Source: Camarhynchus parvulus (lineage: Eukaryota; Chordata; Aves; Passeriformes; Thraupidae). From it: DNA of 64,000 bases. The notes below the pieces were generated by a model, which saw nothing but the letters and a program-made list of their open reading frames with translations, did no database searches and was not told where the DNA came from. The stretch is taken from contig NC_044572.1 in NCBI RefSeq assembly GCF_901933205.1, positions 31,692,001 through 31,756,000 on the forward strand, read 5' to 3'. Of the stretch, positions 970-34,160 are shown piece after piece. Position 1 is the stretch's first letter. Each line of letters opens with the position of its first letter. The position numbers and the translations under genes are program-made.

Positions 970-1204
970 ACCTTGCTGGATGATAATATTCCACTCTGAT
1001 TCTAAGGCTCCTTTTCCTGAGACAGAAGGCCTGGACCCAGTTGCCACGTTCAGGGATGATGCTACGGCTGTGGCATGGAAAACACCACTGTTCTAACAAA
1101 CTGTGAGTGCTGACCTCTGATGATAGATCCCCAGCAACAGGGAATTAAACGGGTAAAGAATAAATATGGGGCTGACCTTAAAGTCGTATGTCTAGGACAG
1201 AAAG
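970..1204 (+). pseudogene. DNAH11: DNAH11 exon remnant: end of stalk to start of AAA5
   Basis: Segments read TLLDDNIPL, then KAPFPETEGLDP and VATFRDDATAVAW, then [21 protein letters not shown] and [15 protein letters not shown]. These match, in order, the dynein region around LDPL, the conserved NCERWPLLIDPQLQGIKW block and the following GQK. There are frame breaks between the first pieces. About 12 codons are lost near 1074-1080, with a frame change. The tryptophan expected in the RWPL block is TGA at 1111-1113. The splice donor after GQK (near 1204) no longer shows GT. Confidence 0.8.
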
Positions 1205-2216
1205 AATACGTGCATGCTGAAGAATTGGCTTTTGCGTTTACTGCCTTCGAGTTCCCCTAATTTTCATAAGGGATTTTTTGTTGAAATGCACTTACTCAAA
1301 GAATTGAAATATTGCAACAATTCTGCTCATTTATTCATAGCGTCATTTTCCTTTTAAAATTGTGCTTGAAAAAGCACCCTTCTTACGCTGTTTTCAAGTG
1401 AGGAGGAGGAAATTAAGTGCAGGTTGATGTGCACTTCTTGTGTGGGTCAAACCATTTTTTCACCAGGTAAAGTGCAAAGCCTGATGGTAAAACCTTACTT
1501 ATACTCTACAGTTTGGTCAGCAGACCACAGCATGTGCACCTCACATGCATGTGCAGCATTCAAGGCAAAAGCCAATATTGGGTCATTTCCTAGTAAACAA
1601 ACATATTTGTAATTCTTATACTTATGACTGAATTATACGCTAGCTGATAGCACTGGCATGTAACTGATCTTTTCATGTATTTTCTTATCTTTACTTAGAT
1701 TTTGGGACATAATGCTCCATTTCAAAGGGTGTTCAGAGTTTTTTCTTCTGAATTCCAGATATAACACACAATTACACAACACATGAAATGGTCATAGTAA
1801 TACCTGAGTTTTAAAATAGATCTTAACCACCTAGCCTGTCTGTTCATTTGAATCAACTCTTTTCCCTTATCTGTCCTGGTTTTTTTTTTTCTTCTTTTTC
1901 CAACCCTCACAAATAATCATGATTTTTCATTCACACTCAGTAGTACCCTGCTCTGTGAAGATCTATTGTCTGATTACTTATCTTTCCGTTATTATTTACT
2001 CCTTTTCCCATGCCCATTGAAATAGATTTCTCCCAAGTCATTCGGATTCTAATTGTTCTTGAAGTCCTTCAAGGAAGTGTTTATTTTTTAAATGAGGATA
2101 TACCAAAAACTGTCACACAATAATATATATAAGGATATAGAGATAGAGATATGTGCTCCCCCACATTTCTATTTCAGTTCCCTATTTCCATATTTGCTTA
2201 TAAGGAAAACCACAGC

Positions 2217-2238
2217 TATATATATATATATATATATA
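2217..2238. repeat. (TA)n microsatellite
   Basis: Eleven uninterrupted TA units. Confidence 0.9.
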
Positions 2239-2450
2239 ATTTTTAATATGAGGAATAGCAAGAGCATAGGTAGAAAGATGTTGAACTCAAAACTGCCAAA
2301 CTCTTAAACACTGGGAAATTCTTTGTGAACAGTTTTCCATGGTTTAACCACGTGTTTTTAGAAAAACCCTATCATTTATATTATATAAAGGAAATCTTTC
2401 TACAATCAGTATTTATCTAATATTGGAGGCGGGGAAATGATATTTTTCAG

Positions 2451-2578
2451 GTAAAGTTTTCTGAAGACCATTGAAAGAGCTCTGGCTTTTGATAAGACTG
2501 TACAAATTGAAAGCATGTGTGACTCTATTGATCCCATACTTGATCCTCTGCTTGGAAGATATACAGTTAAAAGGGAAG
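2451..2578 (+). pseudogene. DNAH11: DNAH11 exon remnant: AAA5 (open)
   Basis: In one open frame it reads FLKTIERALAFDKTVQIESM followed by CDSIDPILDPLLGRYTVKREG, the AAA5 block IEN.EE.IDPVLDPLLGRNTIKKG of dynein heavy chains with no length change. The donor GTATGT at 2579 is good. The acceptor is either the AG at 2449-2450 or the one at 2455-2456. No lesion is seen inside this exon. Confidence 0.85.
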
Positions 2579-3073
2579 GTATGTATGCTTGAGTAATCAG
2601 AATTTTTTCATGACAACTAGATCTATATTACTTTAATTGCCACATTTTGCTTAGTGCTTCAACTCCTCATGTAACAAATGATTTATTTTTAAATAGCAAT
2701 GGCTAAAATCTGGAGATGAGTGGATATTAAAATGTTAGTATCTGCATCTGATTAGGTAGCAAAATTATGTCCTCAGTTTCCAAATTGAACTCAAAATACT
2801 GTATAGATGTGTGTTTCTCAAACTTGAGTGGAATTCTTTATTACTTCAACAAAAAATTAGTAAAACAAGGAGTAGCATACATCATAATTCAGCTTAAAAG
2901 GAAGGAAAGTATTTCCTTTCCATGTTAGGCATCTACAGCAAGGGAGAAGACATTGGAAATTAAGGGGGATTTGGATTTAACAATAAAGGGTTTTCCAGAT
3001 GCAATATCAGCTTAAGAAAACTGTGCCTTCACTATGCCATAATTGGTTTTTTGGCCACCTCATGAAGCAGTTT

Positions 3074-3121
3074 AAAAAAAAAAACCACCACACAACAACA
3101 ACCAAAAAAAAAAAAAAAAAA
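3074..3121. repeat. A-rich simple tract
   Basis: Two poly-A runs surround a CCACCACACAACAACAACC segment. It could be the tail of an old minus- or plus-strand retrotransposed element, but no element body is recognisable beside it. Confidence 0.7.
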
Positions 3122-4429
3122 CAAGAACCTTGGAAAGTAACACAAATGAGGAAAAACTGATATGGTAGGACACAGGGCAGAAATACATAAGCCAGAGGTG
3201 GGGACTGTTTCTGTTGTTATTGCTGCCAGCCTCCCATGCATCAAACCAGTGCAGCTGATCCTGGTCATGAATTCATCATGGCAGATGTCACAGAGGTGTT
3301 AATGCCTGTTCAGTTTTCTCTCTAAACTTAAAAAATACCATTAAAAATATTTCTTAAGATCTTATTTAGGTGCCTTTTAGATACACATTTTCAGGGTGAT
3401 AATAAGGAAAATAAAGGAGTTTGTACTAGGTGCAAGAGAATTTCAGTCTGTGATGTCTTCCATAACTTCTCACAAAAATTTCGGATTAAATTGTTGAGCC
3501 CTTAATGCAGATGTCAGCCTAAAGAACAATGTTGATTTATGGTTGCTCAAGAGTAAACTTATTAAACCTCATTGAATATTTCATCTGATGAACTGAAATG
3601 CCATGTTTCTGCTCAAATATGAATTTAAGCCTGAAAGTGTTCCTCTCTTCTATTTTTGTTTGCAAGCAACACATCAACAAGCTAGATTTTTCATGTTGGA
3701 GAACGTAATCTTTATTCTGATATAAAGCCAGACATACTCCTGGGGCATTTCTGGATGGATCTCACACGTTAGTCAAAGAGTGGTTACAGCGCTTGCACAG
3801 CTTCACCTTGTTGAAAGTGAAAATATGAAAAAAAAATTATAAATAAAGTTATCTTATTTTTCACAGATTACCCAAGATTTTTCTCCCTCCTTCCCATCCT
3901 ATATTTCAGGCATTGGTGCCTGTACATTAAATCCAAGCAGTAAAAAACAGCTCAAATCTCCTTGTATACATGGATCTCCTGGAAGATGCACTCTTGCCCT
4001 ACACTGTGAGACCTTGGAATGATCCCCCTTTGTTGCATTTTTCTGTAGCTGTATTTGAAGTACTTCAGAGTAAGAGCATACAGCTTGCTTTCCAGAATCC
4101 ATAGTGAAGAAACTTTACTGAAAATTAGCATTATACTGGTCTAAAAGAGAGATCAGAATCTTCACAAGGTAACAGACATCTAAGGAATGGGAGGGTGTGA
4201 AGGGATGTGAAACAACAGAAAGAAGTTGGATTGAAAAGGACAAGGGTCACAGCAACATAGCTTTGCATGTGTTTAACAAAGGCTTCCACATAGCACAATG
4301 AAGCTGTGTATGTGGACACAAAAGTAAACATATGAAATTATTCAGAAATAGGTTATTCTGCTGAATATTTACGCAGCATTCTGTGCCTGATTGAAGATGC
4401 ACAAGTCACCTTTGAGGGGCATATGTGCC

Positions 4430-4472
<43 letters not shown>

Positions 4473-4473
4473 C
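4430..4473. repeat. (GT)n(AT)n compound microsatellite
   Basis: GT units run directly into AT units and end in ACACAC, in the dynein intron. Confidence 0.9.
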
Positions 4474-7400
4474 ACAATAAATATGTACCCACACAATACA
4501 TACCCCATTTATTTCCAAATAAGCAGATTTTGCCTCATTCTTGATTAATTTCTGTTATTTTTCATTTTAGTAGTTCTGTCAGGTACTTTGAATTTTTTAT
4601 TCCTAATAAAGAAAGACTAGAAAGGTATTTGTGATAGATATGGTGCAGTCCAGCAGTTGAAGTTCATTAATAATTGGAATGTTGCAGAGTATGAAGTAAT
4701 GAATACTAATTACTCCTTTCATGTCTGACAGCACCCCATGGACCAATACATCAGCCCAGACTTTAATTTGGTTCTAGTAATGGTTTCATCAATAGTACAT
4801 TAATTCTGTGTTTGAAAAGATGTACAGTTGAACCTGACCCACACAGTAGATACCACTGTCATAAAATGGCCACATACTGACAACAACTGGATAATTACAA
4901 ATAATTAAATCCACTGAGCTTCAGACAATCCTAATTTTAAGTAAAATATATCTTATCATATCAATCGACAGAAAGCATAGCAAGGGAGATTTATCAACTT
5001 GTGTTCCTTGCGAAGCAAATTTACTAGCCTGTTTATTAGAGAACTTGCTGATCTGTGAACCACATCAGAAGAGTACCTCTCCCCTTCCTTCTTTGCAAGA
5101 TGGTTCTTATGTTGCATTCCTGGATATTCTGCAACACCAGCTCTTGGTTTCTGAATGAAGCCTGCAAAAGAAATTCTCAGCCTTGGAGAACTTCAAATGA
5201 ATAAATTTATATTTTCCTCAAAACCAGATCACAATAGGGTGAACTAAAGTACTTGTTATCTCTGAAAAGCAGACTTCATGCTTAAGTGCCTTAGTACATA
5301 TTTAGAAGCCTAACAAATTTTGGGTGTTCATACTTGGATACATTTTTATTTTTAATTTTGGAACTGTAAAGCTGCTCAGTTGTTTCTAATGTGCTTTAGA
5401 CTGTGGCTGTATGTTCAAAATTGCTTTTAAATGCTCAGATTTTTGTTAAAATATTTCATGATATTTGCTTTGAGAAGGAGGAAAAAAGGAAAAAAATAAT
5501 AAAGCAATTTAAGAAAATATCAGTTGTAGTACAAAGCTTTATGTAAGCATGACAGCCACAAGTCAAAAAATAAGTAAAATTTGGGTGCAAAGAATTAGCA
5601 ATGTAGGCAAAAAATATTCAAGATGCAATACTTAGATTTTTTTGGAGCAGAAAAACCAAGGCATAAAAGTAAACAGGTACCAACTCTATGTGGTGTTGGG
5701 TTTCGGCCTTCACCTGCTATAAAAGAAACTGTGGCTTGAAAAGGTTTGGTATGAATGGCCCTTAATATCTGAATTTTTACCTGTGTGTGTCCTATCCTGC
5801 TTTCCCAGCACCTCTCTTTTGGGAATCACTGGCTAGGAGCATTACCTATAAGAGATCAATGTTATTTTGGCTCATAGGAGAGAAGATAGAGGAATAAATT
5901 CATTGTTCATAAGGCTCCTATTTGCATTTGAACGAGGTGTTACCCTTGCTGAACTCCTTTGCACAGTCACAAAGAGGTAGTCATGTCTCTTCAGCTGCAA
6001 GATTAGGTTATTAAGAGGTTTTTTTAAGATTTCTTGAAGTTCGATTTATGTGCAAATATAGCTTGTATGAACAAGTTTCCATTCTTATGACGCATGACTA
6101 TTATTCATGAAACAGCAAGAAAATTCGCTGTTTCTCCACAGGGAGAAGCTTTCCTTGCCTTGAACATCTTGTCAGCTGTGCACTTCAAGGCAGTGCTTTT
6201 CCCACTGAACTAGTTTGACCAACTTGCACAGTTTGCCTACTGAGATTGCCTGGTAACAGCTCTGTTCTACACTTGTTTTCACCTGATTTATTCAGCTTCC
6301 TTCTCTACATTACTTGTTGGGGTTTGCAAATCAGTTCCAGAAGCTTTTAATTTTAAACAGCAGGAACTGAATGAAAGCTCCTCTGGAAAATGTGTTTATC
6401 CCTCTTTCTTCCCACTGAAAAATATTGTTTCCCCCTACTTTCCGGTCCAAAAATTTATCAGTTATTTCATTCTTGCTGAGCTGATCTAAAACATCTCGCT
6501 ACAGGAAGCTATCCCACCATTCTACCATGTAGTGTTATGGTCTGTTTTGGAGAACATCTGCCCTGAAAGGGCAAAAAAATGCTTTAATTTTGTGTTGCAT
6601 GAAAGTGTCCCATAAGAAAAGATGTTGCGTAAACTCTCAAGCCATTTCATTATATGAAGTCATGTTCCTGTATTCAAAATTTCTCACCTTGATGAGTTCC
6701 TGTCTTTGAAAGACCTAGGCATTGTTACCTAAGCCAGAACATACACAAGGGAATAGCAGGTCTTTGTGTCAATCAATCAAGTTTGGCAGGTCAGACAAGA
6801 TGTTACACATGTCCCAGACTTCTCATAGCTGTGAGTGCTCATGTTACCTCCTGGAATTTATTTGTTTTTATATTTGCTTTGGCTAAATATAGTTTATACT
6901 CAAGGCATATACAGGTTTTTTAAAGCTTTTAAAGTCCTTTTTGAATCCCTTAATCTACTTTACTTCAAAATCGATGAGAATTTCAACAGGAAAATAAACT
7001 AGTGGGGAACAATCTCTTTTTAATTTACTTTGTTTGTTCTTAAATACCAGGGAGCTGGGACTCACATGAAAGATGCTGTGTCTATTTCTGGGTAGAGTGG
7101 TGCTTTAGTTCCATCTGTTCTATCTGCCTCAGGTGAGGGAATAGAACATTATGAAGAAAACATTGCCAAAAGTAGAAGTTGTCTTTAGAAATTCCTTTAG
7201 TGACTATTTTTTTATATTCCTTCTATCATGGACTTTCATTATTCATGCCTATTTTGCTGCATTTCTTCATAATCCAGAATTAAACTCTAAACAGATATAT
7301 TTTACTGAAAAAAAATTAAGTCATCCTACTGGGTTTCCCACCTCTCTGTTTATCATTGTTGCTTATACTCTTGAACAGTGGAGAGCAATAACAAAACATT

Positions 7401-9283: not shown

Positions 9284-9482
9284 ACGCACCAAGATTGAAG
9301 ACAAAAAATGTGAATTCAAAAAGAATTTTCATCTCATCCTTCACACTGAAGTGGCTAACCCTCACTTACAAGCCACAACTGCAGGCTCAGAACACCTTCA
9401 TTAATTTCACTGTCACCAGGGACAGGCTGGAAGACCAGCTGTTGCCTGAGGTTTTTAATGCAAGACTCACAAAAAATATAAG
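9284..9482 (+). pseudogene. DNAH11: DNAH11 exon remnant: AAA5 end (frameshift)
   Basis: The exon is bounded by a polypyrimidine-CAG acceptor and donor AG/GTAAGG. The first half reads [19 protein letters not shown] then EVANPH. The second half, in another frame, reads [20 protein letters not shown] then LEDQLLPEVFNA. Together these are the dynein AAA5 block [35 protein letters not shown]. One extra T at 9366/9367, between the PH and YK codons, breaks the frame. The phase with the preceding exon is also off by one. Confidence 0.9.
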
Positions 9483-10106
9483 GTAAGGACTATATTTTGA
9501 TTTGTCTGTTGCCTGCTCTGGAATTTTAAGTCAAGAATTAATATGCCTGTTTGAATCCACTGTACTGTAATTGTTAGAAGCCATATTAGGAAGATTTTAA
9601 GAGTCTGGAAAGTGTAGAAGGTTCTTTCACTGATTCATTCAAATCTGCACTCCTAAAGGGCTTGTCTCGACCTAAAGCTCTGCTAGAAATTAAATTTATT
9701 GTGATATTATTCCCACACTTCTCTCTACCACTTGGTTTGTTCTGTGCATTGGATTTGATTTACAGAGCAGGTTTAAAGCCCTCTGCAGTGCTTTGTGCTT
9801 CAGTGATCTTGAGCCAATAAGTGTAAATAAAATTCCATGCCAGTCTGTACAAGGATATAATGGCACTGTTAGGGCATTTGGTTAATAAATCACAATTTAT
9901 TCCTGCAGGGATGCAGTTCAGTGGCTGCTGCAGTCACACCAATATATAGTATGAGGAGAAATGCTTTTATAAGTGGTTATAGGAAGGACTTTGGACAGGA
10001 TGTAATCTATGAGATAAAACATGAATAGAAAATACTTGGGGGTGTGAAATGAATAACAAGAATACCTCCTATTTCTCTAGTGTGTCTTTCCAGTTATCTC
10101 ACTTAA

Positions 10107-10500: not shown

Positions 10501-10516
10501 CATCCCTGACATGACC

Positions 10517-10567
10517 ACAGTCCTTTTGTGTAGTGTCAAGACAACAGTCCTTCTGTGTAGTGTCAGG
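10517..10567. repeat. 27-bp tandem duplication (2 copies)
   Basis: The unit ACAGTCCTTTTGTGTAGTGT is repeated 27 bp later with one change. Confidence 0.85.
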
Positions 10568-10799
10568 AGGAGGGGCACTAGGAGAGAGATAAAGTTCTAG
10601 TGCACGACAGCCTAAACCTGCTCACTTTGGGTGCACAGAACCTCAGATCTAGTATACTGGGACAGAAAGTAAACTGGCCTTTCAGAAATTAAATCAAATC
10701 AACTGATGTAATGAAACAGAAAATATAACTCACAAGTGCCATAAAACATTATTTCTTGCTGTGGTTGTTTAAACACAGTGGTTTTTTTCCCTCTGTTAG

Positions 10800-10956
10800 T
10801 CAGTCCTGACCAAGAAGCCAGAACAGTTTCATGACTGAGCTCAGGCAGCTGGAGGATGACAGGCTGTCAGCTGCCCAGGGCAGTCTCCTAGACCACAGTG
10901 AACTTGTAAAGAAAATCAAATCAGCAAAGTCAACTGCAGCAGAAATACAACACAAG
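10800..10956 (+). pseudogene. DNAH11: DNAH11 exon remnant: AAA5-AAA6 coiled segment (frameshift)
   Basis: It reads SVLTKK, then after a one-base shift QNSFMTELRQLEDD, RLSAAQGSLLDHSELVKKIK and SAKSTAAEIQHK. This matches [55 protein letters not shown]. The extra C at 10818/10819 changes frame. Three codons are missing before RLSAA. After the CACAAG codons the donor reads GC instead of GT (10957-10958), which is weak but sometimes usable. Confidence 0.9.
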
Positions 10957-11467
10957 GCAGTAACAATTGAACTGTTTCTAACAACTTAAAGTCACCTGTA
11001 AAATGTCTATTCTTATTATTCTATTATTATTATTTTAAGTGTAACATTTCTATGAGCTAGAATAGGAACAGTCAAATTGCTGCCTTTCCAGAAAGGGCTG
11101 TCCTCCCCGTATTCATATTTTCATACATATAATATGTAGTTGTCACATGTTTGACTTTTATTTTTTTAGGTGTTTTAATGAGTTCTCATAAAATTAATAA
11201 ATACCAACATGAAATTTGGACAAATGTATTAATATATGATTGCCATGTTTTCCCAGGTAAACAGGCATATTTCTGCAGAGGACAGTTATTGCCTAATGAT
11301 TGTCTAAGATAAGAACCTTACTTACTTCAAATATTTGCTACTGCCTGAAAAAAGTCAGTTTTCTAGAGTATATCCATATTCTTTTCTGTATATATAGGAA
11401 TATTTTGGTAATTGTGCAGGATAATTATGACACATTAAAAATAAACAGGACAGCTGTCACCATTCAG

Positions 11468-11620
11468 GTAGCTGAAGCCAAAGAAAATAATGACAAGATG
11501 TCATGTCAGGATGACACAACAAGAGAGCATTACAGACTGACAGCTGGAAGAGCATCCGCTCCTTACTCCGGGAGTGTCAGCCTGGGCAGTGTCAACCCCA
11601 TCTACCAGCTTCCACTGAAG
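11468..11620 (+). pseudogene. DNAH11: DNAH11 exon remnant: segment before AAA6 (open, diverged)
   Basis: Acceptor TTCAG and donor GTAAAA flank 51 open codons: VAEAKENNDKMSCQDDTTRE, HYRLTAGRASAPYSGSVSLG and SVNPIYQLPLK. The family pattern is [46 protein letters not shown]. The start and end are conserved, but the YFVINDL core is replaced and about four residues are inserted before TRE. This is as expected from loss of selection. Confidence 0.85.
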
Positions 11621-12242: not shown

Positions 12243-12411
12243 GCCTTCAATGCATCTTGCACAAAGCAATAAAACAGGTTGAAAAATCAGGAGATATTCA
12301 GTGTTGTATCTCTAACCTAAAAGAAGCTGTCACATATTGGACCTTTCTTTTCACAAGCCAAGGATTTTTGAAAATTATGAGCTCATTTTCCTGGCCCAAA
12401 TGGCTTTTCAG
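12243..12411 (+). pseudogene. DNAH11: DNAH11 exon remnant: AAA6 (two frameshifts)
   Basis: It starts AFN, then a base is missing near 12252 and the frame moves to ILHKAIKQVEKSGDIQ..ISNLKEAV, then TYWTFLFTSQG. A second base is missing near 12365 and it continues FENYELIFLAQMAFQ up to a good donor GTGAGG. The family pattern is AFNVLFHRAIEQA...[28 protein letters not shown], so the two breaks are single-base deletions. Confidence 0.9.
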
Positions 12412-14440
12412 GTGAGGAGAAATTTTCATATTGGTGATGATGACATTTACTGGATTTACTGTTTCTCCTCTGGAAGCTCATGCCTGTGCCCAAACCCTGT
12501 GGTTGTGTAGTTTCTTATACAGAGTGACTGCGACTTCAGTATCAACAAAAATTGCAGAAGTTCCAGAGATGCTATGATGTAATTATTTTCATTTAAAATG
12601 CTGCAATATCTTCATAAAGCTAGTTTCAGGATAAACAGCATGACTTAGCTGCTCGCATTTGGATAATTAGAGTTTAAATTGATCTGCTATATAAGTAAGA
12701 AGTAAATAATACATATACAAATCACATTCAGGACATTGTTTTTCCTTTTTATTTTAGTAACTGTATGCCCTAGAAAAAGGGCTCAGGTGTACTGGGAGTC
12801 AGAGGTGTCTCTGAAGCAGCTCTGATGACCTTTTTCAATTTTGTGTGCCATCATGATTCTTCTAAGTAGTAAAGAGACAGGACTCCTTGAATTGGATTTC
12901 CTTTTTCAGTTCAGAGTTGAACACAAAAGAATCCTGTTGACATTTAAACTACACAGCCATGGAGTATCATTAGAGTAGTTTGGGAAAATTGCTTTTCAGT
13001 TCTATATCTTTTTTGTTATTATTTCTGGACACGTGCCTCACCTAGACACTTTCAGATAAAGTCATGCATTCTATCATAATTTTTTTAGTAGAAATAGTGA
13101 TGTTTTCAAAGTGGAGTTTTCTTCGCTATTTGAGTGCCTTTTTCCTTAAACATCATATACTGTATCTTGTGAGGAAATTCTGTTCTACCATAATTTGTCC
13201 ACTTCCCTAAAATTAGAATTTTAACTCCCTGCCACTCCTTACTTTAGTAAACGTCCCATAGAGGGTTTCCAGTTTGTCATATCTAGATGTTTAACAGTAA
13301 GCAGACAATGGCAATACTAATCAAAGTAAATTCTTACCAATAATATTAATTTTATGTATGCGTACTTGTGTGTATGTATTTAGTATTTTGTTTATGTAAT
13401 TGTGTATTATTTATGTGATTTAGTATTTTTAGACAAGTCCTGATTCCCTTGGTTGCACCAGGGGTTTTTACATACCTCAAAAACTCTTTTCAGAAACTAG
13501 TAATACTGTCCAGGACAGAATGTTGTATGCTCTGAGGTAGGAAATCTGAGGGTTCATTTTTCAGGGAAAGTGTGTGGGAGAGTAATGCCTTGCATGACAA
13601 ATTCAGATCTTAAGAAGAAAGTAAATAACTTCTAGAACTGGGTAGTCAACCAGAATTTGAGATCCATTACTGTGGTCCTTCACAGCCCGTTCTCCTGATG
13701 AAAAGTTTATGAAAATGTAGTGTGGTAAAACATGAGTCACAGCATATTTGAAGAGCTGTGATTGTGATTTCTTTTAGACTGAATATAGATGCCTGAGGAG
13801 AATAGTCATTGATAAATAGACATACAGTAAGCTATCCTCTTAACAACTATAAATGTATTTTTCAGTGTTAGTTCTCATTATGGTATTAGAGCTGGTAGGT
13901 AACCCCACAGGATGACAATTTTTCAGATATCCCTTTTGAAAGTTCTGTGATGCCAAGAAAGATTCTGTATGTCTTCAGCTGTGAATACTGACACATTGGT
14001 TTTCCAGTTGTACTGTTTTTGTCTTTCAGTCCCAAGTGATGGTCCTATAGACCTGTTGCTCCACATCCCATAGTCACCATTTTTACATGACTTGTGAGAA
14101 TGCAAGCTTAGTCCTAGATATTTATTTGGCCAACTGCCCCAGCTTTACGTGACAGTATTGCTTGCATGTAATGAGGTCCTTTTTATTCAGAAGTTTCTCT
14201 CTTCTGTCATATGGTCACTATCCTGCAGGGAAATGGGAAAAATCATTTTCTCTCTTGCTTCCCCACCTGCTTCCCTTCTTGCCTTCAGTTCTCTCTCCTG
14301 ATGATTTCTCTGATGAAATGACCATCAGTCTCAGATACACTCAAGTCTGAGAATGATGCAGACCTGAAGTACTTATCAAGGCACATCTTTTGTGTTTAGC
14401 AGATGTTTGGTCATGTATAGAAATTGTGTGGAAAAAAATC
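12412..14440 (+). other. Region where AAA6 exons are eroded or lost
   Basis: The protein order demands exons for roughly 130 residues here (the LDFLLRF...WRKWVESECPEKE...MRPDRMTYALRNF part). Only faint traces are seen. A WESEVSLKQL-like stretch follows a polypyrimidine tract near 12815. At 14263-14350, SDEMTISLRYT after a TTCAG acceptor resembles PDRMTYALRNF. Both are weak. Confidence 0.35.
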
Positions 14441-14569
14441 TCGTTTCAAGGTACATGAAAAGCACAACGATGGATTTAGCAAAACGCTAAGAAGAGAGCA
14501 GTCCAACCACTCCTGTGTTTTTCATCCTGTCTTCAGGACTAGACCCACTTGAAAATCATGAGACCCTAC
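14441..14569 (+). pseudogene. DNAH11: DNAH11 exon remnant: AAA6 (stop codon, donor lost)
   Basis: It reads TMDLAKR, a stop (TAA, 14488-14490), then EESSPTTPVFFILSSGLDPL and ENHETL. This matches [34 protein letters not shown]. The stop sits where the family has an aromatic residue. The next exon starts with two bases of a glycine codon, so this exon should end G/GTAAG. Here the bases are C/ATAAG, so the donor GT has become AT. The 5' edge of the exon is approximate. Confidence 0.88.
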
Positions 14570-15630: not shown

Positions 15631-15758
15631 GCAAAAAGCTTGGGTGCACTATAGACTCTGGAAGATTTCATAACATGTCTCTAGGACAAAAGCAGGAGAT
15701 GGTTGCAAAGGAGGCACTCAAGAAAGCTGCCCCACATGGCCATTGGGTTCTTTTCCAA
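15631..15758 (+). pseudogene. DNAH11: DNAH11 exon remnant: AAA6 (open)
   Basis: Between acceptor TATTGCAG and donor GTGAGT it reads GKKLGCTIDSGRFHNMSLGQ then KQEMVAKEALKKAAPHGHWV and LFQ. This matches [29 protein letters not shown].KA...GHWVILQ nearly residue for residue. No lesion is seen. Confidence 0.92.
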
Positions 15759-18346: not shown

Positions 18347-18561
18347 AATATTCATCTAAGTAGCTGAGTGGTTCAAAACCTTGGACAAACTCCTTGAGCA
18401 ATACAATATGTCATCCTGATTTCTGCATCTTTATCAGTGCTAAGCCAGCTCCAACCACAGAAGAGTGCATAATTCCCCAAGGAATACTAGAAATTCAATT
18501 AAAATTACCCCCTATAAGGATGCTGGCTAATTTTCATGCCGCTCTTTATAGTTTTGACCAG
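18347..18561 (+). pseudogene. DNAH11: DNAH11 exon remnant: AAA6/C-terminal region (stop and frameshifts)
   Basis: It reads NIHLSS, a stop (TGA, 18365-18367) plus one extra base, then [14 protein letters not shown] second frame break near 18404-18412 is followed by [27 protein letters not shown], and [14 protein letters not shown] up to donor GTAAAA. The family pattern is NVHLVAKWLGTLEKLLE...SHRDYRVFMSAE.APTPDEHIIPQGLLE...MLANLHAALYNFDQ. About three codons are missing before MLAN. The bases before AAT are GG, so the acceptor AG may be lost. Confidence 0.9.
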
Positions 18562-19077: not shown

Positions 19078-22000
19078 GTAAGGATTATGTGCTGTTTGTT
19101 TTGTCTTTTGCTCTTTCCCTGTGTAAAGTTCTTCTTGGTGGGTGGAAAGAAGAAGGAGGAGAAAGAAGACATGAGAATGTGTAGAACAGGCACGTCACAG
19201 GTAGTGTGCAGTCTCCTTCCCTCCAGATCCCTGGTTATCCCTGTGTGCTACCCCAGGAACTTGCAGAAAGATCTTCAAGCCCACTGTGAGTCAGCTTCCC
19301 TGCAGCAGTGGCAGTGCTGGAGCAGTCAGCTTGTTCTCATCAGCAAAGCAGGCCATGATGAAGGCAGCTGTAACTGCACATTTCGCCTTCCAGCAGGGTA
19401 TTCTCATGGAGCTGGTGGAGCACAGCACACGTGAGGGCAGAGCTGGGATGTGAAAAGGGTAAGAGCTCCTTCAGAAAGAAATACTAGCCAATGCCAGGGG
19501 GAAAATAAAAGAAAAAAAAGGAGAAAAGAAATTAAAAAAAAAAAGTTGTGTCAGAGCTACAAATGGATTGATTTTGATGGTGTGGAATGATTTGGAAAGA
19601 TATTTGTGAGAAAAGAAGAATAACTGCAGTTTTGTGGCTGAGCAGCTCACTATTAATACAGCATTTTGTTATTTTTTCCATTTTTTATAACTTACTGTTA
19701 TAATACTTTTAATGGGAAGCTGAAAAATTTAGACTAAGTTTTTAATAAAGGTGGTTCATATACATTGTTGTCCTGCTTCAGTCTGTGTTTAGTGAAAGAA
19801 TACATATGTATATATTTGAAATAACCAATTTCTAAGCTTTACACTTTAGAGAACTCTCTTTTCTCACCCACTATTCTCAGCCATAGGTGTTTGTGGCTTA
19901 CCACAAATTCCTGTGCAGACACTGTCTTTAATATATTTCTGGTTAAGGGGTTGGGTTTTTTTTAAATTACAATAAGAAAATCAAAGTATGCCTAATCCAG
20001 ATGGAATAGATGTCATGGGTTTGCGGTTTTATTCAGGGTAGAAACTTGTGTTGTATTTTTTCATGGTCGAACTCAGTATTCTGATTTAAGGAAGTTTTTT
20101 TGTCAGACATAAAATCTTTCACCTTTGCCCAGATTCTACTACATGTTGTTCAGCTCAGGATGATCTATTTCCTTTTGAAAGACAAGAGTTGATCCCTCTG
20201 ATGTTCCCTCCACACATCGTTATTTTCAAGGGTAACAAAATTAATTTTGTTATGTTTATTACTTCTTAAGCTAAAAGATAAAATATAGAAAAATGTCAGA
20301 GACATAAGGATTAATTTCTGCAGGTTTTACAGGAAAATGACGAATAATTTAAAAACCAGATGAATCCCTGTGCTGAATATCATCTTGCTGAAATTCTCTA
20401 TTAACACGATAAATAATGGAGGCAAAACCAAAAATATTAAACTTCAATTTCAAACATGACTCTTTGGTAAATGGTGTAAAATTTCAAGGAGTTTGAAGGC
20501 TTTCTAATAAATGTTAAACTAGTAAATTTTCTGCTTGGGATAAAGTCTGTGGATGACTTAGCTAAGAAGCTATAGCGGTTATCTGAGTAATATTTATAGA
20601 CTTCTAGGTAAAGACTCTGTTTTTCTTGGTTTCAGTAGCAAACAAAACAGTTCTCCTTTCCTAAGGGACATTTGGGAACTAAAATGTCACTATCAACAAT
20701 TTTGCATCTGGGAATTACTGAAAAAAATACTGTGTAATAGCCTCTGATTCTTTAGAAACCTGTTTCTCACTCTGCTTCCAGCTCCAGCCTTGTGAGTGCT
20801 CCCTTTTGGCAGCCGAGGCTGGCACAGCTCTCAGCAACACTCCCTGTTGCTAGTGCAGAAGTTGCTCCTTTTTTTTTGACAGGGGTCCCCTGACCTGCAT
20901 GCCAGAGAAGGGGAGTTTAAAAGCATCCATTTTCCTCTGTGCAATTTTCACACTTCTGTTCCTGGGAGACTGAAGTTTGGCCCTCGGGGCTGGAATGGAA
21001 GGTTCCAGATCAGCACCTGAGATCTCAGTCTGCGTCGCCATCCTCAGCGTCTTGTGGGCTCAGAGGCCCACAAGAAGGTAGGAAGTGGTCAGGTAACCAC
21101 ACATCAAGGTAATTTCCACTCAGTCATATGTTTATACTGAATAAGGAGGATACTTCCTTCCCTGAATCTGTTATTTAAGTAGCTGGCATTATGTGATACT
21201 GCTGGTGAGTATGAAAATAAACCATATCAAAGGGGGTTGTGGGTTTTTTTCTGGCAGTGGATGGTTGAACTTTGTAATGTAGGTAAAACCAGTTCCACAT
21301 CAGTAGCTAAGGGGAAAAAAATGTCCTTCATTATGTTAACAAAAACAGGGGTTTACATGTGCATATATGCCAAATTCATTAGGCAGGTAATGAAGCATTT
21401 GCACAAATGTAATTACAAACAGCAATTCTGACAGTTCATAACACTGCATTAATAATCACTACAATTAGTTCTGATGATGGAAGCAATTTACAGCACGTCA
21501 CATGTATAAATAATGGTGCATTTCCTGAATGTGTCATTATTATGTATTAAGGATGCCACCTTGTTGTGACTTTCTCTGTAATGTTCCCCTTGAGTCAAAG
21601 TTAAGGATACGAGAGTGATTTTTTTTTTCTGAGCTACCACATATTTCAGACTTGTATAGTTTAAATACCGAGTTGAGGTCATTTGTGTAAGTTCGGTATG
21701 TGAAAATGTGAAATGTCTAAATAAAAGACAGTAATTATTTGTTACTGAATGATATAGGATATTATTGAATAGATCCTCCCATTTGAGTAATCTAAATAAA
21801 TTTCAGAGATATTTATAAAGAAATAAAAGAGACAGAAATGTCACCCCTTGATGATATGGTTTTCTCCCTATCTCCCAGCTTGTATTTACTCAGAGAAATT
21901 AATTTTGTTTTTGTCTTCATACCCCTACTAGTCTTTATTTAGTTAGTAGGACATCAAGCTGTTTTTCCTTTTTGTGGTACTTGGTGTCATAGTGAAATAA

Positions 22001-24289: not shown

Positions 24290-24400
24290 GTGGGTTCCAC
24301 AGGAACCCTTGGTGAGATCATGTAAGGTGGCCACATCACGGGTGCCTGGGACCGCAGGCTCTGCTGGATCTGTCTGCAAGAATTCCTCAGCCCAGTCCCA
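24290..24400 (+). pseudogene. DNAH11: DNAH11 exon remnant: [10 protein letters not shown] block (stop codon)
   Basis: After acceptor CTCCTCAG it reads VGSTGTLGEIM, stop, GGHITGAWDRRLCWICLQEF then LSPVP before GTGAGA. The family pattern is [35 protein letters not shown]. The tyrosine codon after GEIM is now TAA (24323-24325). Three codons are missing before GEIM. Confidence 0.93.
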
Positions 24401-27400: not shown

Positions 27401-27554
27401 GGGGGGAATCCTTTAGTAACCCTGTTGCCTTGTATCAGAACATGCAGCTGTCATGTCTAAAAAACTTCAAATAAATTCCTGAAACTTTGTAGCTACAGAA
27501 GAATGTTTCCTGGTGTCAGCATTACCACTAAAGTTATTGATTCTTTTCCTACAG
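24401..27554 (+). other. Dynein intron
   Basis: Contains an AT-rich low-complexity patch at 25246-25330. Nothing else is recognised. Confidence 0.55.
25246..25330. repeat. AT-rich low-complexity / TATATG-type repeat
   Basis: Degenerate GTATAT/ACATAT units. Confidence 0.75.
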
Positions 27555-27776
27555 CTTGGAGGGGAACTTGGCACCATGTTTCTGGGCCTCTCCAAATCTG
27601 GATTATGATTGATACCATGAATACATAGATGAAATACTTCCATCTGAAAGCCCTGTACTGTATGGACTGCACCCCAATGCTGAGATGGGATTCTTGTCAA
27701 CATCAGATAATCTCTTCAAAACTCCTTTGGAAAAGCAAGCCATATCTCCATGGGAGAGGGACCAGGACAGTCTACA
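27555..27776 (+). pseudogene. DNAH11: DNAH11 exon remnant: C-terminal domain, LYGLHPNAE block (stop codon)
   Basis: After acceptor CCTACAG it reads LEGNLAPCFWASPNLDYD, stop, [20 protein letters not shown] then [20 protein letters not shown] and KQ. The family pattern is [50 protein letters not shown]. The glycine codon of the DY.GYH motif is TGA (27610-27612), one substitution from GGA. Another stop follows at 27777. The 3' edge is approximate. Confidence 0.95.
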
Positions 27777-29744
27777 GTGAAAGAGGTGAAGTTCTTCATC
27801 CAATGTGTTGTCAGTTCTTTTAATGACAGGTGGAATACACATCTTGCTGTGTTATTTCAGCAATAGACTTAATTTTGGGGGCTGGAAGATTGGCGGGGGG
27901 AGGGGGGAGAACGCATCAAATTAGAAAAGGTCAAATGAGTGTTAATAGTTGTGACAATGCATCAGCCTGGCCAAGAGGTAATGCACTAGGAAGACATTTG
28001 GACCAATTTCTTTTTCACATTGAATTTATTTGGGGTGCGAAACAAGGTATGGATCTATGCCACTTTTTTTTGTTTGTTTTATTTTGTATACTTTTTATAA
28101 ACAAGTACAGCAAAAATAACTTACTAGAAAAAAGGCATGGTTGGTTGAATTGGTGAGTCTAGTCTTGACCTCTGTCTTTTGTTCCCATCTCCTGCATGAT
28201 AAAACTCCTTAGGGTAGCTTTCCTATGCCTTCCCACTTGTGCCAAGCATAGGAAGTCCCTCCTAGCCTGCACTCCTGACTTTTTCTGCTGCATTCACAGC
28301 CCAGCCTAGCAGTGGTGTGCAGGATTTCCATGCCAGGAAGAGCAGCCTAAGCACATGTTCTCTCACTGCTTCCCTTCCTGGAAACTTGTTCTGAGCAGGA
28401 GCCTTGTGTCTGTTCCAAGACTTCCCTTGCAAGCAGTAAAGGAAGAGGAGGTTTTCAGGCAGTTTTAGTTTTTGGGTAGTCTGAAGAGGTGAGTCCTGGC
28501 CAAGGAGGGTGTCTCACCATCTCTTAGCCTCAGCACCTCACCACAGAACCTGGAGTCTAGCAGAACAATAACATTCATACTGATAAACTATCAGATGCTG
28601 GGTTAAAAGGACCAACCCTAATACCAGGATAAGCTTTGTCACTTCATATGGAGTTGGATGGGACATTGCAGTTCTGTTCATAGTCAAGATATGTCAGACA
28701 CACAGATACATTAGTATAGCCAAACTCCTTCCAGAAAAATTTAAAAGGATGGGTTTTAAGCATGGAACATCACTGGTGTTTAAGAGATTAAATTAATAAA
28801 GGAGCAGGGAAGTAAAATGTAATCACAAATCTTAGCTAGTTCTGTTTTCAGATTTTGCCATCTTCTGCATCCTCCTTTCTGAGTGTAGGTCTGAGAAGCT
28901 ATGTCCAGATGCCCCCAAGCCTGGCACATGATGAGACTGAGCCTTCAGTTCCTTATCCTTACCAGAGTTAATTAAGGTCCCCTATGACTGCCACTCTGGT
29001 TCTGCATTTCTCCATCCCTTTCTTTATTTCCTCCCTTTCCTCTGAGCACTCTTTTTTTAAAATCTTTTTTTTTCCTCTTATCACTATCAGATCATGGAGG
29101 TTTTGCAGGAGGAAATGTGACAGCTCTGCATGCAAGTAGCCAAACACTGCTTCATCTCCTGGTGGGAGCTTGTGCTTTTTATGCTCAGTCCCCCTCCACT
29201 TCAGGGAGTCTGGACCATAACATATGGCATTCATCATTAAGTCTGCCAAAGCTAGGGCTGAAACAGAGGCTGAGCTGCATTAATGCTGTGATTTCAATTC
29301 CTGCTTATTAGCACTGTTATGAATTGTTCTTCATTTATGTTCTGTCTCAGTTCCAGAGCAAGCCTGCGGCGAGAGAGGCTCCTTCTGGGGGTGAGGCATG
29401 TCTGTGCCTGTGCTGTGTTTTGCCTAATGCCAGAGACAGCAAGGACTGTGGGTGGTGGAGGGGGTGATGGAAGCTATTAGGTACTAGAGAAATACAAACT
29501 ACTGACTGAAAAATCAAGGCACACTTGACTGAAAATCAAGACAATTCCAGGGTGTATCCTAGTAACAGCAGTCATCCCAAGTCCAGGACAACGCATTAGT
29601 AGGCTTCAAGGGTCAACGTTACCTGAAAATGTAAAGCTAAATAGAAGCTGCTAAGTGTTAATTGGTTTGCAGTCATTCCTTTCAATACTGTTGCCAAGAA
29701 GACAGCAAAGGTGATGGAGGGAGCATCTCTGTTTTTTATCTAAG
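27777..29744 (+). other. Dynein intron
   Basis: Holds a G-rich tract at 27877-27911. No exon or mobile element is recognised. Confidence 0.55.
27877..27911 (+). other. G-run tract, possible G-quadruplex
   Basis: Runs of five, six and six G separated by short spacers, of the form GGCGGGGGGAGGGGGGAG at the 3' side. A four-stranded fold is possible if a long run is split. Confidence 0.4.
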
Positions 29745-30037
29745 AAAATGAGATATTTGTGCTCTTCTGAAGAAATCAGACACTTGAAAGTAGAAGAGTC
29801 AGAAAGAGTTGATTTGCTGGGACTTCTATTGCATCTGTTGTATTGTCCTGAAGAGGTTAAGAATGTCCTGGGTGATATTCTGGAAATGTTTTCTGAGAAA
29901 CTTAACATAGCAGAAATCATGCAGGAAGACTATTGCCTGGAGACCCTATGCTCTTGTTTGCCTCAAAGAATAAGGTGATGAACCTTTCCCTTTCAGAGAT
30001 GCATAGGTCTTCTAAACAGCTGGACCTCGGTGTGAAG
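29745..30037 (+). pseudogene. DNAH11: DNAH11 exon remnant: [14 protein letters not shown] block (frameshift)
   Basis: The clear part reads CPEEVKNVLGDILEMFSEKL then NIAEIMQEDY, matching [28 protein letters not shown]. A frame break at about 29976-29977 is followed by MNLSLSEMHRSSKQLDLGVK, matching MNILIREIRISLQQLDLSLK. After GTGAAG the donor reads GC (30038-30039). Residues before CPEE do not match the family, so the true 5' edge may be nearer 29850 than the AG at 29743-29744. Confidence 0.85.
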
Positions 30038-30126
30038 GCAAATTACTTATTTCAGGGATTTTTGTGGCTCTTTTGGAAATGAAAGAATAGTTATTCTTTA
30101 TGTTTGCCTTTTATTTTTCTCCAAAG

Positions 30127-30251
30127 GGGGAGCTGATGTTTTCTGCTTACATGGACATGCCACAATATACACAATATACACTTTTCTGTGATGTTGTGCC
30201 AGACACATGGACTAAACCAGCATATCCATCCACACACAGCTCTGTCCACTG
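30127..30251 (+). pseudogene. DNAH11: DNAH11 exon remnant: GEL...VPDTW block (open)
   Basis: Between a TTTCTCCAAAG acceptor and donor GTAAGT it reads GELMFSAYMDM then QYTLFCDVVPDTWTKPAYPS and THSSVHW. The family pattern is [39 protein letters not shown]. A short CAATATACA duplication adds residues in the middle. The frame is kept. Confidence 0.9.
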
Positions 30252-31041
30252 GTAAGTACCCCACAGTGACAGGGTTTAGCTACTATGCAGCTATTCCAGT
30301 GATTTAAGCCCAGCAGCCTTGTTCCATTCTTATTTCTTCCAAATTTCATCCTAATGAAAGTCAGTTTTCTCTTGAAGTGGGTTTTGTAGAAACACCAAAC
30401 ACTTTGCTAAAGCAAAGGCTCTGTTACCTCCCTTTGTCCCAGGTACCAGACGTGCTCAGCATCCTGTGGGATTCCTTTCTGCTAGCCTGCCACCAGCAGT
30501 GGTTAGACATGGATGAAACAGGCATTGTTTCTGGAAATTCTTCTGATACCTCATGGCAATGTATGCTGCATTATGCCATTATTCAGAACCTCTGTCAGAA
30601 TCCCTTATGTTCCTGATTTTTGCACTTTGCTCTGGCTTATTGGAAGTTTAAATATGAATTTTAAATACCAATGAAGATGCTAGCAATTTGCATTTAAGAA
30701 GGCATCAGCTCTTAGCAAATCCTGGCAGCTTCTCATGGTAATGTTCAGGTTTCTCCCCAAGACAGCAAATTTAACAGGACTGAGCATACTCACATTCTCT
30801 GCTGCCAGCAACCCATCCCATACTGATCACCTTCTACAACAGATTTCAGACATACTTACATGAGGGAAACAACAAATTCCACTGAAACAATCACCTTAGA
30901 CTTACATAAGCTTACATTTCTGGTGACTTCAGCAATGTACTTTAGACAAAAGGACTCTACACTTGAAATCTGTAGTTTTTTTTGTCTAAAAAGGCAGTTC
31001 ACACATAGTTAAGGCAGGAGCTACTGATGCTTCTCTTTTAG

Positions 31042-31152
31042 CATTGCTGATTTTCTCATGAGGTGCCAAGAACTTGACATCTGGACACAGGACTTAGTGC
31101 TGCCAGCCGTGGTGAGGTTTTCTGGCTTGTCCCATCCTCTGCTTTCTGACAG
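31042..31152 (+). pseudogene. DNAH11: DNAH11 exon remnant: [10 protein letters not shown] block (frameshift)
   Basis: After TTTTAG it reads [20 protein letters not shown] then [12 protein letters not shown], matching [38 protein letters not shown]. Towards the end, compared with CCTCAGTCTTTTCTGACAG-type sequence, two bases are missing near 31140, breaking the frame before the donor GTCAGC. Confidence 0.9.
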
Positions 31153-31626
31153 GTCAGCAGTGATGGGTGTAGGGCACTAAGCAAATGGTTTCAATATCAG
31201 ACATTTCATCTACTGGTGTTAGCTGTGTTTGTGATGCTGCTTGGAGAGCTAATCACAGCTTAAATAAAAAGATTAAAATCACCTTAACATTAAAATAATC
31301 CTTTCCTGAAAGCAAGGGGAACAATCCAAACTTGTCTTCAGGCTACTCAGAAGTGTGAGGACAAAGCAGCTAAGGAAATAAGAGCTTGATTGTATAGTTA
31401 AAAAGAGGTTTAAGAGTGCAAGTTTTTCTACCATTGTTATTTAACTAATTCCGTGCATATATCATGGTACCAATCTGTTTTCTTCTATAAAAGAATTATG
31501 AGGCTAAGGAGAAAAATAAATCAAGCCTCCCAATCTTCTTTGTGTAGTTGTTGCCTCAGTAGGGGATGGAAAACTTTCACCAGTGTAGTGAATAAAGCAG
31601 TACATCTCATTTCTTGTCACAATCAC

Positions 31627-31770
31627 AGAACATTAGCTCAGTCTGTTAGAGCATGGTGCTAGTAACACCAAGGTTTGTGGGTTCAAACTCCACACGGATC
31701 ATTCATTTAGGAGTTGGACTTGATGACTCTTGTTGGTCCCTTCCCTCAGAATATTCTGTGAATTTGCGAA
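31627..31770 (+). mobile_element. tRNA-Ile-derived SINE with CR1-like 3' tail
   Basis: The head (31627-31697) resembles a tRNA-Ile gene, with an A box TAGCTCAGTCTG, the stem GCATGGTGCTAGTAACACC and a B box GGTTCAAACTC. The isoleucine anticodon position is mutated and there is no processed acceptor end, so it is not a working tRNA. The tail (from about 31699) is the CR1 3' end: GGAGTTGGACTTGATGA, then GGTCCCTTCC and AGAATATTCTGTGAA. This tRNA-Ile plus CR1-tail structure is known as a SINE of songbirds that is mobilised by CR1 enzymes (TguSINE1 type). Confidence 0.8.
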
Positions 31771-32059
31771 TGTATGTTTGCATTTATTCTGAACACCACA
31801 GGAGTGCTTGGTAACAGTGTAACTCAAATTCTGCATGGTCACCAATGGCACTGAGCTAAATGCTTCACTTGGCTAGCAGAAATGTGGCCAGGAGCTCCTC
31901 ACAGGACACTGGCTGGGCTGCCATAATTCTCTGGAGAAGGGCAGACCCCACACAGTCTCAGGCTTGAGCATGATGGCTCAAGAGGTTGACAGTTCTAACA
32001 TCAAACTTACTGTCTGGATATAGAATTACTGAAAGCACTTTTTTTTTTTTTTTATAAAG

Positions 32060-32191
32060 CTGTAATGCAGAGCAGGAACAACTGGCCTTTGGATAAGGTG
32101 TGCCCAATTGCAGATATAACCAAAAAGACCAAGGAGGAGTGAGACCACCCAGCAAGAGAAGGAGACTATATCTGTATGCCTTCTGTGCAAG
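32060..32191 (+). pseudogene. DNAH11: DNAH11 exon remnant: KNEWPLDKM...VTKKTKED block (stop codon)
   Basis: After a poly-T/ATAAAG acceptor it reads AVMQSRNNWPLDKV, ADITKKTKEE, stop, DHPAREGDYICMPSVQ, then donor GTAAGA. The family pattern is [48 protein letters not shown]. The tyrosine codon after KEE/KED is TGA (32140-32142). Two codons are lost after MQ. Confidence 0.94.
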
Positions 32192-32614
32192 GTAAGAAAT
32201 GAACTTAAATTGCTTGATCTCCTAGTTCAGGGACTCTATTAGGCAGTGAAGTTGCATAAAGAGTTGCACTAAAGCATTGTGACCCTATGACCAGCACCAA
32301 GAAGCTTAGGCACGATGCTAGATTGCTGGCACTTGTCACTGTGGCTTTAAATTTCATACCAGCTTGGTGTTCTAATCATTAAATACACTTCCTGCATTTA
32401 AATAACTGTTATGTATGTCTGAACAAGGTCTGCATTGTAGTAAAGCAGCAGCTCTAATCCAACTGAGGTTCAGAAGCTTAAAGACTATTCCAGAAACTAT
32501 AAATTTCACAAAAATGAACTTCTAGACATTTTTTGCAGCTCTCAGAGGTGCAGAATAGGGTTAGTAGTTAGAACATGTTGGCAACCTGGATCAAGTAATC
32601 TACACAACTGCAAT

Positions 32615-32705
32615 TAAAAAAAAGAAAACCACAACCTAACCCCCACAAAAAAACATCAACCAACCTACCAACAAAACCCCCAAACCCCCAAACAAACATA
32701 AAACC
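32615..32705. repeat. C/A-rich simple sequence
   Basis: Degenerate AACCAACC/AAACCCCCAAAC units. Confidence 0.75.
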
Positions 32706-32876
32706 TCACAAAAATTGTCTTTATCCTGTTTTTTTCTTCTACCTTGACTGAAAGTTGCCAATTCTAAATAAACAGTAGAAAGAATTATGAATGTTTTATT
32801 TGCTGGGTCATAATGCTTATAAAGCTTTTGGGGAGACATACCAAGAATAAAGGGAAGTACTTGAGAACACCTGTAT

Positions 32877-32922
32877 TGTGGGTCCGTTCCAACTCAGAAT
32901 ACTCAGTGATTCTGTGATTAGC
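32877..32922 (+). mobile_element. CR1 3'-end fragment
   Basis: GGGTCCGTTCCAACTCAGAA followed by TACTCAGTGATTCTGTGATT is the typical CR1 3' end with its ATTCTGTGA-type terminal repeats. Only the end is present. Confidence 0.75.
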
Positions 32923-33860
32923 ATGAGGTATAATTAGGTGGGCAAAGTGTAAGAATTAAGAGATATTCTTTTCATCTGGACTTTTAAGCAATCAGTTATT
33001 GCAGTAGCTGTAGTAGGGTTGTAGGCTGTCCCTGAATGGAAACCATGTTCACTTTTTGAGCTGCAACTCATCTTTTAACAACCTTCACAAGATAAACATT
33101 GTATTTTGTTCTCTTTAATCTGTATCTTCCTGAGACTGAAGCATTTAGTTCAGGAACAACAATTCTGGCCTGCTGTCAACATGAGATTTTAGTTTTAACT
33201 GAGAAAAGCTGTCAACAAAGCTACAGCTCATTAGAGAAAGGTGAGTGACTCCCAGTGGCAATCAGAGAAACACCATCCTTACTCTTCACCAGACCTGAAT
33301 ATAATAAAAAGAAAGCCACTCTTTTGGAAAGGAGTTGCTACTACAGCAGGTAAACCCCAAGAGGAAAGTTAGGGTGGGGGAATGGAGCAATACAAAGGAT
33401 GTCATTTGAATGCTGCTTTTTGAAATGGGGGCATCAACTTTTTAGAGGTTTTTTTTAGCCATCTGTCAGTCCAAGGGCAATACAGTTCATTCCTCCTCTG
33501 GAGATGAGGAAAGCATCAAGGAACCTTGTGTGTGCAGTTTGGGCTTGTGTTGGTGTTTACATATATAAAATTTCCTATCACTACAGTCTCTGTTTTTAGT
33601 AAAAGGGCTTGTTAATGAATCCACAAGTACAGTCCAGACAGATGCTATGGACTCATCTCTGAATTCAAACAAAGCACAGCAGGCCAACAAAACCTCAATC
33701 TAAATCAACCAAATGTCAAGTCCACGCTACATCTGTGTGTTCAAATGTAGCCTTAACTATTTAGCAACTGTTTAAGCACAAATGATTCTGGTCTTGCACT
33801 ACAGAACAGCATGTAAAGCAGGTGCTACTATTACTGCAGGCACCACACAGGACAGGCCAG

Positions 33861-34077
33861 GAGCAGAAACATGGTTCAGGAGCTGACTTCAGCAATGCCA
33901 GACATTTTTTTAAAGGCTATTCCAGTGGATCAAAGGGAAAACAAGAATGTTTATGAATGTCCAGCTTATAAAAGCAAAAGCAGGAGGACAACTTGTGTTT
34001 TGACTTTCAAGCTGAAAATCAAGTCAGGTAAATGGGTTCTGGCAGAAATAGCGTCACTCCTGTCAGTTTCATACTAA
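33861..34077 (+). pseudogene. DNAH11: DNAH11 terminal coding exon (open, with stop codon)
   Basis: It reads VQELTSAMPDIFLKAIPVDQ, RENKNVYECPAYKSKSRRTT, CVLTFKLKIKSGKWVLAEIA and SLLSVSY, with stop TAA at 34075-34077. The family ends [66 protein letters not shown]. No frameshift is seen, but two residues are lost before KW and the WTF tryptophan is lost. It is the last exon of the decayed gene. Confidence 0.93.
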
Positions 34078-34083
34078 GCTTTC

Positions 34084-34089
34084 AATAAA
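34084..34089 (+). terminator. Poly(A) signal AATAAA of the DNAH11 remnant
   Basis: AATAAA lies 6 bases past the stop codon, implying a very short 3' UTR. Confidence 0.6.
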
Positions 34090-34160
34090 ACATGCTGCTT
34101 TCTCAGTCTCCCTGTTACTAAAAAGAGAGATTTTTCACAGTCAGCTAGAGCAAATCTAGA

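Follow-up and report, generated by a model that had tools for sequence, protein, structure and literature searches.

Remnants of the ciliary dynein gene DNAH11 beside CDCA7L in Camarhynchus parvulus and signs of a wider loss in Neoaves

Introduction

DNAH11 is a primary ciliary dyskinesia and heterotaxy gene in humans. Its mouse counterpart is the iv gene, and two papers describe ciliary motility and left-right patterning as depending on it (PMC10126504, PMC3866868). According to the first of these, birds, turtles, geckos and the chameleon have a left-right organizer without motile cilia, and the chameleon expresses Dnah11 later, in the ear and kidney (PMC10126504). This suggests that reptiles other than birds retain DNAH11 for use in cilia elsewhere. 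Here we describe a stretch of 64,000 nucleotides (the window) from contig NC_044572.1 of Camarhynchus parvulus, in which the last quarter of DNAH11 is present as a series of broken exons. Our best reading, at a probability of about 0.8, is that DNAH11 is dead here and that it has been dispensable, and decaying, from about the base of Neoaves onwards. No earlier report of a loss of DNAH11 in birds was found among open-access titles and abstract openings on DNAH11, cilia or laterality.

Dynein exon remnants in the window

The three plus-strand frames of positions 1–36002, in which X stood for stops, were searched against PDB chains with phmmer. Dynein heavy-chain segments were found, in order, in six of the nine comparisons and were closest to DNAH9 and DNAH17, while the other three comparisons gave no dynein heavy-chain segment. 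Turtle and bird DNAH11 queries mapped DNAH11 exons from 983 to 34068 by tblastn. A custom spliced, frameshift-aware alignment against a profile of 49 non-bird DNAH11 proteins scored 2160 on the plus strand versus 267 on the reverse complement. Twenty of the 27 aligned blocks, each 15 residues or longer and 40 % or more identical to the crocodile protein, were retained and seven tiny blocks were dropped. The retained blocks follow the order of the final quarter of DNAH11, with introns between them, and hold 941 residues, seven in-frame stops and 13 frameshifts (Table 1). This confirmed and extended the sequence-only reading of the window, which had counted about 16 dynein exons, six stops and at least eight frameshifts.

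Three of the seven stops (1111, 24323 and 27610) fall on residues found in all 49 non-bird proteins. The least certain calls in the alignment are the block at 32965–33009, which is doubtful, and the stop at 12945. Three of the 13 frameshifts adjoin a run of at least four equal bases, and the other ten have no such run within about five bases. In four intact synthetic controls, in which 36 % of the residues were redrawn at random and the coding sequence was interrupted by the introns of the window itself, neither stops nor frameshifts were called. The exons are dispersed over 33 kb with their introns retained, the alignment scoring favouring GT/AG joints, and a processed copy was set aside because the introns are kept.

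Identity of the gene and its neighbour

The exon at about 27.5 kb was used to search a vertebrate protein database. Among the best 120 of 231 matches it was 63–74 % identical to bird, turtle, squamate and amphibian DNAH11 and 58–68 % identical to DNAH17; on identity, this exon by itself leaves the paralogue unsettled. In a tree of the C-terminal quarter built from 25 DNAH11 proteins only, the window fell inside the bird DNAH11 clade (support 100/100) and the birds grouped with Crocodylus (91/97). The window's end branch of 0.41 was flagged as long, against 0.08–0.27 for the other birds and 0.03–0.17 for non-birds, and its joining with Morus within the birds (91/73) is distrusted on so long a branch. 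Among the window's residues at columns distinguishing the two paralogues DNAH11 and DNAH17, 43 are of the DNAH11 type, two are of the DNAH17 type and 22 are others. Given the clade support and these columns the paralogue reading was set aside; the comparison with DNAH9 was made via the PDB matches only.

Downstream, two minus-strand exons together cover positions 5–99 of the 99 of the zf-4CXXC_R1 finger, with 59.1 and 54.6 bits against a cut-off of 22.7. We take this neighbour to be CDCA7L from its place, on the human DNAH11-CDCA7L gene order. The CDCA7L exons had been described as free of lesions, and this holds for the two zinc-finger exons, which have a complete finger and AG/GT ends; our verdict is limited to those two.

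DNAH11 models in other birds

Two protein searches were made, one with the gannet (Morus) DNAH11 as query (1751 proteins scored) and one with that of the frogmouth (Podargus; 7976 scored), and the best 120 were considered in each. Both admit only proteins of 0.55–1.75 times the query length, which places short fragments outside their scope. With the gannet query, all four bird rows (Morus, Ciconia, Sarcoramphus and Spheniscus) were named LOW QUALITY PROTEIN, as were two of the 116 non-bird rows (Gastrophryne and Erpetoichthys). With the frogmouth query the same label was carried by all seven bird DNAH11 rows, namely the previous four genera together with Podargus, Phoenicopterus and Aegotheles. 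No ordinary-quality bird DNAH11 was found in the best 120 of either search. Ordinary-quality models among the matches listed came from turtles, crocodile, tuatara, squamates, amphibians, mammals and fishes. Two Columba guinea rows found with the frogmouth query match DNAH17 better and were not counted as DNAH11. Each of these models contains repeated DNAH17-like C-terminal stretches, which may be tandem DNAH17 duplications or mispredictions.

The bird models are without any X (five of the seven checked). Across the seven there are 148 single-residue gaps at positions where no non-bird has a gap, and 47 of these lie at a crocodile Arg, Gln or Trp, where 16.1 would be expected (p = 6e-12). Such an excess is the pattern left when in-frame stops are dropped from models. 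At crocodile columns 2061, 2565 and 3022, stop-like gaps recur at Arg or Gln codons, perhaps through repeated C-to-T hits.

Loss of constraint

The 49 non-bird DNAH11 proteins share 1239 invariant columns, and 14 non-birds were tested by leaving out one at a time. Over the whole protein these 14 kept 98.7–100 % of the invariant columns and the seven birds 82.3–91.0 %; in the C-terminal part the ranges were 98.3–100 % and 79.4–91.1 %, respectively. The window keeps 222 of 294 invariant residues (75.5 %). Twenty-seven invariant columns are altered in at least five of the seven birds.

A control within birds used 1024 columns that are invariant across DNAH11 and DNAH17 alike. Of these, nine DNAH17 models from birds kept 96.9–99.7 %, the seven bird DNAH11 models 82.6–91.8 % and the window 197 of 257 (76.7 %), and seven left-out non-birds kept 97.1–100 %, the lowest being a pig DNAH17 model. 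A first DNAH17 control, based on 22 non-birds that were nearly all mammals, was dropped as too loose; the only turtle kept 95.5 %. On those mostly mammal-defined columns, nine bird DNAH17 models kept 87.9–96.5 %, with the passerine Formicarius lowest at 87.9 %.

The sequence evidence supports positions 977–34068 as the 3′ quarter of a dead DNAH11 in its ancestral place beside CDCA7L, and the gene is almost certainly dead in this genome. With introns kept, lesions over most exons, placement in the bird DNAH11 clade and 222 of 294 invariant residues retained, the proposal of a unitary pseudogene beside CDCA7L is upheld, as a putative one in respect of the word unitary. The loss had also been called lineage-specific. 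This proved too narrow, as constraint is likewise lost in the seven other birds, whose models also bear signs of hidden stops, and the finding is more interesting for being wider than one lineage. Judged from the database protein models, DNAH11 in these seven other Neoaves appears to have lost almost all purifying selection.

Table 1. Features located in the window
Feature	Positions	Strand	Reference positions	Lesions and remarks	Evidence
DNAH11 exon remnant	977..1203	+	crocodile 3394-3480	frameshift 1079; TGA 1111 replaces Trp of 49/49 non-birds	PDB phmmer, spliced alignment
DNAH11 exon remnant	2458..2580	+	crocodile 3482-3521		PDB phmmer, spliced alignment
DNAH11 exon remnant	9285..9450	+	crocodile 3523-3577	frameshift 9366	PDB phmmer, spliced alignment
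DNAH11 exon remnant	10800..10959	+	crocodile 3591-3646	frameshift 10818	PDB phmmer, spliced alignment
DNAH11 exon remnant	11498..11620	+	crocodile 3647-3692		tblastn, spliced alignment
DNAH11 exon remnant	12243..12411	+	crocodile 3693-3749	frameshifts 12252, 12365	tblastn, spliced alignment
DNAH11 exon remnant	12856..12989	+	crocodile 3750-3832	37 residues unaligned; frameshift 12925; TAA 12945 (less certain)	tblastn, spliced alignment
Short DNAH11 exon remnant	13479..13534	+	crocodile 3833-3854	frameshift 13509	spliced alignment
DNAH11 exon remnant	14422..14568	+	crocodile 3856-3904	TAA 14488	PDB phmmer, spliced alignment
DNAH11 exon remnant	15633..15758	+	crocodile 3906-3947	none found	PDB phmmer, spliced alignment
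DNAH11 exon remnant	18347..18561	+	crocodile 3948-4023	frameshifts 18359, 18408	PDB phmmer, spliced alignment
DNAH11 exon remnant	20883..21032	+	crocodile 4024-4073	TGA 21018	PDB phmmer, spliced alignment
DNAH11 exon remnant	24305..24400	+	crocodile 4096-4127	TAA 24323 replaces Tyr of 49/49 non-birds	PDB phmmer, spliced alignment
DNAH11 exon remnant	27562..27776	+	crocodile 4128-4203	TGA 27610 replaces Gly of 49/49 non-birds; frameshift 27739	PDB phmmer, protein search, spliced alignment
DNAH11 exon remnant	29856..30037	+	crocodile 4207-4268	frameshifts 29928, 29971	tblastn, spliced alignment
DNAH11 exon remnant	30127..30243	+	crocodile 4269-4304	small in-frame inserts	PDB phmmer, spliced alignment
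DNAH11 exon remnant	31043..31151	+	crocodile 4307-4343	frameshift 31139	tblastn, spliced alignment
DNAH11 exon remnant	32062..32172	+	crocodile 4345-4384	TGA 32140	PDB phmmer, spliced alignment
Last DNAH11 exon	33883..34068	+	crocodile 4409-4472	open end to end; tblastn match from 33874	PDB phmmer, tblastn, spliced alignment
SINE, TguSINE1-like, tRNA-Ile head, CR1-like tail (by eye)	31628..31765	+		in DNAH11 intron	
CDCA7L exon part	35685..35822	-	zf-4CXXC_R1 54-99	AG/GT flanks by eye	
CDCA7L exon part	36469..36618	-	zf-4CXXC_R1 5-54	AG/GT flanks by eye	

Probable timing of the loss

For each lineage, the ratio of private changes at invariant columns over those at variable columns was calculated. 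It was 0.02–0.08 in six functional lineages (crocodile, two turtles and three squamates) and 0.06 on the bird stem, and 0.69–0.94 in the eight bird tips including the window, which itself gave 0.72. Under four filters the tip ratios were 0.55–0.90, and that of the window 0.69–0.82. These values suggest that DNAH11 was normally constrained on the bird stem and little or not at all on each tip, and a normal stem followed by relaxed tips points to a loss near the common ancestor of these eight birds. The birds sampled (Strisores, flamingo, waterbirds, a New World vulture and this bird) presumably go back to about the base of Neoaves. Whether through a single loss or several, DNAH11 is quite probably dead throughout Neoaves, and we lean towards all Neoaves, perhaps all birds, having lost it at the start of their radiation.

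A SINE in a DNAH11 intron

An Rfam tRNA-like match at 31633–31694 is the head of a short interspersed element (SINE) lying in one of the DNAH11 introns. The head scored 62 against tRNA-Ile and 34 against the next best of the six tRNA genes compared. No match was found for the CR1 end repeat or for guessed SINE patterns, and ARAGORN found no tRNA gene. TguSINE1 is described as combining tRNA-Ile with CR1 and as having arisen in Eupasseres (PMC5729268). It marks passerines other than New Zealand wrens. The element resembles TguSINE1 in its tRNA-Ile head and, by eye, in its CR1-like tail, a comparison that leaves the four diagnostic tail nucleotides outside it. On this single element the genome is probably that of a passerine, and a passerine host would fit the faster decay of DNAH11 in the window.

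Discussion

Several observations weigh against a gene that is dead here and has been dispensable from about the base of Neoaves. The best 120 of either search included no DNAH11 from fowl, ratites or passerines. The evidence from other birds comes from predicted proteins, in which any frameshift would be hidden. The functional-control ratios were computed without the local filter and against other reference groups. In the window, the stops make up seven of 222 amino-acid changes (3.2 %), which is under the code average of 5.2 %. The last exon is open; yet a clean exon of 62 codons is unsurprising at 20 lesions in 941 codons, and its retention as a product was set aside as chance, given this lesion density. 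In a 2015 paper chicken DNAH11 figures as a gene, located at chr2:30.6 Mb and carrying a transgene in its thirteenth intron; the description of the locus there leaves its intactness unaddressed (PMC4447378).

The remaining points on this side bear on the number of losses. No stop-like bird-only gap is common to all seven birds. The widest, at column 820, is found in four birds in a region where the alignment is ambiguous, while R2061, Q2565 and column 3022, which are conserved sites, are gapped in three birds each, a patchy distribution that suggests separate hits. At the columns of the window's seven stops, the other birds that have sequence carry an amino acid. The tip ratios are below 1, and without the local filter four of the eight bootstrap intervals lie below 1, making some constraint on part of the bird tips possible. 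Mostly private or patchy gaps, intact residues at the window's stop columns and ratios below 1 all favour several independent losses, in which DNAH11 was merely dispensable in birds and was broken separately in each lineage, this one included. However, all eight lineages together have a high ratio and the stem is normal, where staggered losses would scatter between the two, and a shared lesion may be hidden, as frameshifts are unseen in protein models. We consider separate losses possible and rather unlikely.

That the window holds a dead duplicate, and that a functional DNAH11 lies at another site in this genome, is very improbable. The locus adjoins CDCA7L at what we take to be the ancestral place, from the human gene order, and an ordinary-quality bird DNAH11, of which there was none among the best 120 rows of either bird-query search, should rank high if present. 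Still less weight is given to reuse of the locus, perhaps to produce a non-coding transcript or a short protein from the open exons: some exons are without lesions, the last included, but chance would leave such exons where lesions are this dense, and constraint at the locus is nearly gone. Assembly or sequencing errors within a working gene are scarcely credible even though indel errors are frequent in some long-read assemblies, because the seven stops arise by substitution, 72 of the 294 invariant residues are lost, ten of the 13 frameshifts are not near runs of at least four equal bases, the DNAH11 models of other birds have decayed similarly and the two CDCA7L exons checked are clean.

If DNAH11 was lost at about the base of Neoaves, as we prefer, this outer-arm beta heavy chain would have been under normal selection along the avian stem and would have become dispensable at about that point. 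What inactivated it there would be an unseen lesion, be it a frameshift or a change to the promoter or a splice site, or else several lesions arising at almost the same time, and the gene would have drifted ever since. With a sauropsid organizer that is without motile cilia (PMC10126504), DNAH11 would have been needed only in other motile cilia, and in birds a paralogue may have taken over from it; DNAH17 models exist in birds.

Should this be correct, most living birds would build motile cilia without a motor whose absence in mammals leads to ciliary disease and situs defects. A bird-wide loss would mean that airway and sperm cilia can work without DNAH11. Birds would then reveal how the outer dynein arm functions without it, and would raise the question of which paralogue fills the proximal outer arms. 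The organizer role would also be separated from the other roles of DNAH11, since other reptiles keep the gene without a ciliary organizer and birds seem to have lost both. As a warning, bird DNAH11 probes or annotations may point to a dead gene or to a paralogue.

Comparison with known systems

The locus resembles DNAH11, the left-right dynein known as iv in the mouse, in its orthologous sequence, exon order and place by CDCA7L, and differs in that the gene is broken here whereas ordinary-quality models are found in non-bird vertebrates among the matches listed. It is like unitary pseudogenes and other lineage gene losses in that introns are kept, lesions are many, constraint is lost and no intact bird orthologue is among the matches listed. 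In contrast to these, the gene concerned encodes a large motor of the cilium, and its loss apparently extends over many orders of birds. The loss of Dand5 in reptiles and birds, cited in PMC10126504, is similar in that a gene of the symmetry-breaking cilium is lost where the organizer is without motile cilia. It differs in that turtles, geckos and the chameleon are described in the same source as also being without motile organizer cilia (PMC10126504), yet ordinary DNAH11 models are present in turtles and squamates.

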